A stretch of 64,000 bases of DNA. Source: Bradyrhizobium sp. Its GTDB lineage: Bacteria; Pseudomonadota; Alphaproteobacteria; Rhizobiales; Xanthobacteraceae. Below, in pieces: positions 40,776 to 42,287 of this stretch. The notes below the pieces were generated by a model. That model was not told the origin of the DNA, ran no database searches, and saw only the letters and a list, made by a program, of their open reading frames with translations. Every line of letters begins with the position of its first letter. The first letter of the stretch is position 1. Location: positions 1-64,000 of the forward strand of contig NZ_DAIDJE010000044.1 in the NCBI RefSeq assembly GCF_027451485.1. Reading direction: 5' to 3'. The translations under genes were made by a program, and so were the position numbers.

Positions 40776-41432
40776 CTAGAGGGCCGCGAAAGGCTCGCGC
40801 AGCGCGGACCGTTCGATGACGGGCAGGTCCTGCCAGACGAGCACAGGCCCCGGCACTGATCGGCGGAGGCAGATCTCCGCCCACGCCCGTTCATTGACCT
40901 CGACGGTGACGGCGACCGTCGACATCGAATCAATCTCGATGGGCAGGCCGAGCGGGCGTGCGACCCAGCCTTGATCGAGCAGGCGCGGCAACCACCAGCT
41001 CTCCAGCACGATCGTGAAGGCCGACAGGCCGATGGAAAGGCCGTACTCCATTGCTGCGGCCTGAATCACCGCCTCAGCGCGTGGCCCGGCATGTTCGCCG
41101 CGCCGGTTCTTCACAACGAAAATCCGCGACAATTCGTAGACGTCGGTTCGCCGCACGGGGCCGTTCAGGGACAGCCCCGGAAATAATTCGCTAAGCAGCG
41201 TCGGTGCCGTGGTCGGTACCAATCGCATGCCGGCGATGATGGAGCGGCCTTCCAGACCAAGGAGGTAGACCGTCTCTTCGGTGTCGAACTGGTCTACCTC
41301 GCGCTTATCGGGACGCTCGAGCTCGGCCCATTTGCGCTCGACCACGTAAATCTGGTGCCGGAGACGGAAATAGTCCTCGAGGATTTGCGAGTACAAATGC
41401 CGGTTATCATGACGGATGACGTGAACGTCCAT
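40776..41432 (-). CDS. acyl/aryl-homoserine lactone synthase (LuxI family)
   Basis: [47 protein letters not shown]: conserved LuxI residues; LuxR gene upstream on same strand. Confidence 0.93.
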
Positions 41433-41436
41433 GGAC

Positions 41437-41476
41437 CTCTCTCCAAACCGCGCGGCCTTGCACGTATCGGAGAGAG
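41437..41476 (-). promoter_or_regulatory. possible Shine-Dalgarno-sequestering stem upstream of luxI
   Basis: On minus strand CTCTCTCC (41476-41469) is perfectly complementary to GGAGAGAG (41444-41437), the SD region 4 nt before the luxI ATG. Confidence 0.4.
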
Positions 41477-41501
41477 TGTTTTTTCGTTCGCCAGCCGGCT
41501 A

Positions 41502-41517
41502 CTGTCCGAAAGGACAG
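41502..41517. promoter_or_regulatory. candidate lux box CTGTCC-GAAA-GGACAG
   Basis: Perfect 6-bp-arm dyad between luxR stop and luxI start, centred 77 bp upstream of the luxI ATG. Confidence 0.65.
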
Positions 41518-41558
41518 GGCGGTGGTGCCTCTGGCCAAGGAACTTCAAGTTCGCCGCA

Positions 41559-42287
41559 CTAGAGCTTGATCAGCCCCCAAGCGAGGGCCTTGGCGACCGC
41601 CGAGGTCCGGTTGACAGCGTTCAGCTTGCGTGAAGCTTCGACCAGGTGGAACTTCACCGTGCGCTCGGAGATCTTCAGGATCATCGAAATTTCCCAGGAG
41701 GTCTTGCCGCCGGCGACCCAGCGCAGGACTTCGCGTTCGCGGGCGGTCAGCGGATCGCGTTTTCCCCGTCGCGGCTTTGCCAGCGAACGAATGCGATTAT
41801 GGGCGTAGACTCCGATCAGCTGGAGCGCGCTCTTGGATACCGGATCGAGGTACAGATGCTCGGTGGCGAGGCTGATCACGGCGCCGCCTTCGTCGTAATG
41901 CAGCGGAATGCAATAACCATCCCGCAGCTGGAATTCGGTAGCCCGGGTCATCACCCGATGCGCAGCGGGATCGTCGTCTTTGTCATAGCGCGCCTCCGAC
42001 CATTCGAACGGCTGGACCGTCGAGGCGCCGTATCGCGGCACCGGATCGAGCGCGCTGAAATTTTCGCGCGTATAGAGCTCAAACCACTCGTCCGGCCAGC
42101 CGTTGGCGAGAGTCAAATCGGCAAGCGCAGTCCCCGGCGCCGGAAGACCTGCCATGATGTAGGCGTGGAATCCGCACGCCTTGATTTCGGACTCGAATAA
42201 CCTGACGACGCCGGGCGCATTCAGCCGCTCGACCGCATCGACAAAATCGAGAGCTCGCCTACCCCACTGCCGGGCTGCGTTCGCCAT
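41559..42287 (-). CDS. LuxR family quorum-sensing transcriptional regulator
   Basis: N-terminal autoinducer-binding domain (NGWPDEWFELYTRENFSALDPVPRYG) and C-terminal HTH (LTAREREVLRWVAGGKTSWEISMILKISERTVKFHL). Confidence 0.94.
   Translation of the reverse strand: MANAARQWGRRALDFVDAVERLNAPGVVRLFESEIKACGFHAYIMAGLPAPGTALADLTLANGWPDEWFELYTRENFSALDPVPRYGASTVQPFEWSEARYDKDDDPAAHRVMTRATEFQLRDGYCIPLHYDEGGAVISLATEHLYLDPVSKSALQLIGVYAHNRIRSLAKPRRGKRDPLTAREREVLRWVAGGKTSWEISMILKISERTVKFHLVEASRKLNAVNRTSAVAKALAWGLIKL

Follow-up and report, generated by a model that had tools for sequence, protein, structure and literature searches.

The luxR–luxI pair that lies between SURF1 and thrC in this Bradyrhizobium genome is, in all likelihood, an orthologue of the rpaR/rpaI system of Rhodopseudomonas, and its sequence predicts that it makes and senses p-coumaroyl-HSL derived from exogenous hydroxycinnamate. 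The assignment as an orthologue stems from the closest PDB match of the synthase, from the trees of both proteins, from Gln124 and the Trp146/Trp147 pair, from the class of operator, from the status of the pair as the sole LuxI and LuxR of the genome, and from a gene order shared with R. palustris GJ-22. The system itself is already known from Rhodopseudomonas and its RpaI type is rare in Bradyrhizobium; the parts of the locus with the best claim to novelty are two others – a leader element preceding luxI and a small third gene behind it.

Organization of the locus

The window, that is the whole stretch of DNA analysed, comprises 64,000 nucleotides and carries the following features.

39328-40472, plus strand: SURF1 flank, with a DUF983-type protein on the same side
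40511-40687, minus strand: small gene for a 58-aa protein (predicted two-helix hairpin), the third of the luxR–luxI unit
40776-41432, minus strand: luxI, rpaI-type LuxI, predicted p-coumaroyl-HSL synthase, 218 aa
41437-41476, minus strand: leader hairpin, 3′ arm GGAGAGAG over the predicted luxI Shine-Dalgarno
41502-41518, minus strand: CCTGTCC-TTTC-GGACAG palindrome, lux-box-like, predicted LuxR operator for luxI
41559-42287, minus strand: luxR, rpaR-type LuxR receptor/regulator, 242 aa, with Pfam Autoind_bind and GerE
42751-44181, plus strand: thrC, the opposite flank

A first-pass annotation of this DNA had described adjacent luxR and luxI genes on the minus strand between SURF1 and thrC, and with this both the reading frames and Pfam agree: the two frames are open exactly where that annotation had placed them, luxR precedes luxI on the minus strand with a gap of 126 bp, and the products match Autoind_synth (luxI, 1e-15; 58 bits against PF00765, where the cut-off is 24) and Autoind_bind plus GerE (luxR, 5e-29 and 4e-20). 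The layout is that of RpaR/RpaI: luxR and luxI are adjacent on the same strand, with a lux-box palindrome between them. The host genome (G000; 5.33 Mb, 99.95% complete) contains only this one LuxI and this one LuxR with an autoinducer-binding domain, and a search for photosynthetic reaction-centre genes found none.

The synthase is of the RpaI type

A phmmer search of the PDB with the window LuxI returned as top match 6WN0 – the 4-coumaroyl-HSL synthase RpaI of R. palustris – aligned without gaps over residues 1-212 (E 5e-100), a likeness well outside what chance would give, with BjaI (5W8A) next (E 5e-49). Identity is 70.3% to RpaI (6WN0), 52-54% to BraI and 42.9% to BjaI. BraI is represented here by the LuxI proteins of G104 and G027, genomes that we take to be ORS278 and BTAi1. 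The luxI gene of the former sits near 1.00 Mb, a position consistent with BRADO0941, which has been named a cinnamoyl-HSL synthase (PMC3899966).

In a LuxI tree of 54 rows the window protein forms a clade with those of G041 and LY.54 (99/94), and this trio joins all the Rhodopseudomonas RpaI-type proteins, 6WN0 included (18 rows, 99/92); the BraI type makes up a separate clade of 16 rows (100/98), and the BjaI type lies farther off. The first-pass annotation had judged a stretch of this LuxI to be nearer to RpaI/BraI-type synthases than to BjaI. The alignment, which is near residue-for-residue with RpaI, bears this out and narrows it to the RpaI type, and the tree, in which a fatty-acyl-ACP clade had been named as the placement that would speak against such a reading, sets the protein within the RpaI clade of the acyl/aryl-CoA group.

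Seven residues (Arg25, Trp35, Asp47, Asp50, Arg70, Glu100 and Arg103) are the same in the window LuxI, RpaI, BraI and BjaI. Other residues bear on the substrate. In RpaI, Gln124 hydrogen-bonds the hydroxyl of p-coumarate, while Trp146 and Trp147 constitute an 'indole platform' for acyl-CoA (PMC8188788). Both tryptophans are present in the window LuxI. Position 124 is Gln in the window LuxI and in all RpaI-type proteins, Leu in the BraI-type proteins of Bradyrhizobium (15 of 15) and Met in BjaI types; the split between Gln124 and Leu124 fits a ring hydroxyl that one of the two signals has and the other lacks. The LuxI of a further genome (G364; L058/L076) lies on the BraI side of the tree and yet has Gln124, together with a different upstream repeat, and its signal is hard to predict.

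The earlier proposal that the locus makes an aryl or other non-fatty-acyl signal is thus supported by the RpaI clade, Gln124 and the indole platform. The accompanying suggestion that this signal is possibly a different one gained no positive evidence; by default, p-coumaroyl-HSL is predicted. A different ring on the aryl-HSL, such as feruloyl or caffeoyl, or an altogether new aryl signal would be in keeping with the permissiveness of RpaI-type enzymes in E. coli, and with position 71, beside the invariant Arg70, which is Met in Rhodopseudomonas, Ala in BraI and Leu in the window LuxI and throughout the sub-clade that the three Bradyrhizobium RpaI-type proteins form. We nonetheless regard such a signal as improbable: at the residues that the consulted literature reports to set ring substitution the window LuxI is identical to RpaI.

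Receptor and operator

The LuxR is 88% identical to that of G041, 81% to that of LY.54, 62-71% to RpaR-type proteins of Rhodopseudomonas and about 51% to the LuxRs found beside BraI. Its tree, in which the RpaR-type group comprises 17 rows (100/99), has the same shape as the LuxI tree, indicating that synthase and receptor travelled together.

Some 70 bp upstream of luxI stands an exact palindrome, CTGTCC-N4-GGACAG (41502-41517), the sole exact copy in the genome. All RpaI-type loci compared have it upstream of luxI, and no BraI or BjaI locus does; BraI loci carry instead a repeat of the ACTGG/TCTGG type, and BjaI loci one of the CTACTGGGAAATTTCCCAATAG type. Each of the three synthase types thus has an operator type of its own. 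The form one base longer, CCTGTCC-N4-GGACAG, occurs once each in G000, G041 and G139 (LY.54), and the Rhodopseudomonas genomes have one or two copies. G209, G104, G027 and G172 lack it; G113 and G107 have a single site each, located elsewhere. One-mismatch copies of the operator in the host genome (15 sites, against 9 for a control pattern) are close to background, and a regulon drawn from them was set aside.

With these data the likeness to RpaR/RpaI of R. palustris (RPA0321/RPA0320, p-coumaroyl-HSL) extends across gene order, 70% synthase identity, Gln124, Trp146/147, the operator palindrome and a downstream small gene (RPA0319 by locus number). The window differs in its site at the SURF1–thrC junction, its non-phototrophic Bradyrhizobium host and Leu71, and in that its small gene stands 88 nt past luxI, where that of R. 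palustris overlaps the luxI stop codon.

Could the locus be a cinnamoyl-HSL system of the BraI sort known from photosynthetic Bradyrhizobium? ORS278 and BTAi1 share the genus of the host, BraR/BraI has the same order of luxR, luxI and small gene and likewise a leader hairpin, and cinnamoyl-CoA is usable by RpaI itself. But BraI-type proteins form their own clade (100/98), share 52-57% identity with the window LuxI (about 54% for BraI of ORS278/BTAi1), have Leu124 and go with another operator at another site, and the host is devoid of photosynthetic reaction-centre genes, all of which makes this reading quite unlikely. Less likely still – we give it very little credence – is a synthase akin to BjaI or NwiI that makes an isovaleryl- or fatty-acyl-HSL. 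Where a Bradyrhizobium LuxI gives a good match it is indeed mostly BjaI-like, and BjaR1/BjaI of B. japonicum/diazoefficiens (isovaleryl-HSL) shares the Trp pair of the acyl-CoA platform and the order luxR, luxI, small gene; its synthase, however, is 43% identical, belongs to a distant clade and has Met at 124, and its operator is CTACTGGGAAATTTCCCAATAG. An rpaR/rpaI orthologue remains the reading we prefer.

A probable RNA hairpin precedes luxI

The 40 nt preceding the luxI start fold as CTCTCTCC...GGAGAGAG (z -5.5; -4.1 for a longer leader of 111 nt), which places the 3′ arm at the Shine-Dalgarno position. Values of z below -2 are found in 15 of 15 RpaI-type leaders, which are related and do not amount to fifteen independent cases; among control SD-ATG sites taken from those loci the share is 9%. 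Arms were also exchanged between species at fixed cut points and compared with cognate pairs, two control regions being treated likewise. Cognate arms of the RpaI type pair at -23.0 kcal/mol, against -16.2 for swapped ones (p 5e-5); the BraI type and a mixed set each gave p 5e-5, and the two control regions p > 0.86. Within the BjaI group alone the test was not significant (p 0.07-0.73, fixed cuts). A search of Rfam with the hairpin returned no family.

Arms that vary while their pairing is kept, together with variable loops, argue for an RNA element, and from its position the hairpin probably hides the luxI ribosome-binding site, keeping translation low until it opens. A competing view, concerning this element only, takes the inverted repeat for a further operator, acting as DNA. 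In the window its two halves match perfectly, and two lux-box-like repeats have been reported upstream of rpaI in R. palustris GJ-22, among them an inverted repeat at -35 (PMC10305029), a reading under which a DNA operator is possible. We consider it the weaker account, though one deserving some weight, given that it is the complementarity of the arms and not their sequence that is conserved, that loop length varies widely, and that the 3′ arm sits at the Shine-Dalgarno position.

A small gene follows luxI

The 58-aa ORF starts 88 nt after luxI, and a gene of this kind stands behind luxI across the RpaI-type loci. Homologues of about 45-53% identity follow luxI in the Rhodopseudomonas loci, even though the unit sits elsewhere in the chromosome there, and a similar small ORF stands behind luxI in BraI and BjaI loci. 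Profile comparison of the RpaI-type with the BraI-type gave E 6e-5 (probability 65%), and the small ORFs of BraI loci are likely, on this measure, to be counterparts of the 58-aa gene. For the BjaI type the values are E 1e-3 (probability 18%) against the RpaI type and 0.016 (probability 3%) against the BraI type, and with probabilities so low the link is tentative. In Rhodopseudomonas the small gene and the luxI stop codon overlap; in the BjaI type the gene begins one base past that codon. On a plasmid of Mesorhizobium sp. B1-1-8 a gene for a 118-aa protein (L224, 2145-2501) lies right behind a BjaI-like luxI; the protein has no evident resemblance to the 58-aa one.

Values of dN/dS between 0.06 and 0.33 in 16 of 16 pairs speak of purifying selection, and so the 58-aa ORF is coding. 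Its product has no relative in Pfam, NCBIfam, PHROGs or the PDB; an AlphaFold model gives a two-helix hairpin (pLDDT 83), for which a fold search returned generic helical hairpins only. By gene order and locus number we infer rpa0319 to be the Rhodopseudomonas counterpart. In RNA-seq of R. palustris SA008.1.07, rpa0319 and rpaI (rpa0320) change together: on 4-hydroxybenzoate the log2 changes are 7.58 and 6.71 (significant), and on syringate 5.90 and 5.00 (not significant) (PMC6974649).

Distribution and history

Within a genus set of 272 genomes (the host genome and 271 others) the RpaI type occurs in three (100, 87 and 81% identity) and the BraI type in fifteen, most other good matches being BjaI-like. 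In all three RpaI-type genomes – G000, G041 and LY.54 – the unit occupies the same SURF1–thrC junction; SURF1 and thrC are neighbours with no unit between them in Rhodopseudomonas, in the BraI strains and in several further Bradyrhizobium that were compared. The nearest relative tested, G209 (thrC 94%), holds a remnant in this very place: of luxR, codons 1-156 survive at 90% identity, and the small gene is intact, but a deletion of ~1 kb (L197, around 3795-3839) took luxI together with the final third of luxR, its DNA-binding end. The shared junction and this remnant indicate that the unit entered the site in an ancestor of the lineage and was lost at least once.

Substrate supply and a model

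A search for the aromatic ammonia-lyase family found no member in the host genome, nor in two Rhodopseudomonas genomes checked; p-coumarate is therefore expected to come from outside, as it does in R. palustris, whose strain GJ-22 has this gene order and runs it on p-coumarate with CouB (PMC10305029). Matches to PF00221 in G104 (ORS278), G027 (BTAi1) and G041 were entertained as cinnamate-forming lyases and dropped; that of G104 scores as a histidine ammonia-lyase. The host has 34 AMP-binding matches, members of the benzoate-CoA-ligase family among them, none assigned with confidence as a p-coumarate CoA ligase. Searches for R. palustris couAB by NF006588, by homology to benzoate-CoA ligase and by map position did not locate it; the regions found belong to other acyl-CoA pathways.

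We envisage the following course of events. Plant-derived p-coumarate, or a related hydroxycinnamate, would be taken up and converted by a cellular CoA ligase to p-coumaroyl-CoA; LuxI would couple the aryl group of this thioester to S-adenosylmethionine and release p-coumaroyl-HSL. At high density the signal would bind LuxR, and LuxR would occupy the CCTGTCC-N4-GGACAG operator ~70 bp upstream of luxI, presumably raising transcription of luxI and of the small downstream gene. The hairpin over the luxI ribosome-binding site would probably damp translation until it is opened.

Implications

In the searchable literature we found no description of the leader as an RNA element or of the small gene as a circuit component. 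Their conservation across these systems, together with the published co-induction of rpa0319 with rpaI, suggests that, for this acyl/aryl-CoA quorum-sensing family, the two-gene circuit as described so far is incomplete. A tentative extension, which we hold to be possible but short of probable, is that these units in Bradyrhizobium and Rhodopseudomonas include as standard two parts that have gone undescribed: an RNA hairpin controlling luxI translation, and a small two-helix protein, encoded behind luxI, with a role in the circuit, say as an anti-activator or as a partner of LuxR or LuxI. The Gln124/Leu124 split, for its part, offers a direct mutational handle on aryl specificity. If the predicted signal is the true one, a p-coumaroyl system stands in Bradyrhizobium beside the cinnamoyl and isovaleryl ones, and a single genus would hold three 'dialects', each with its matching synthase residues and operator.
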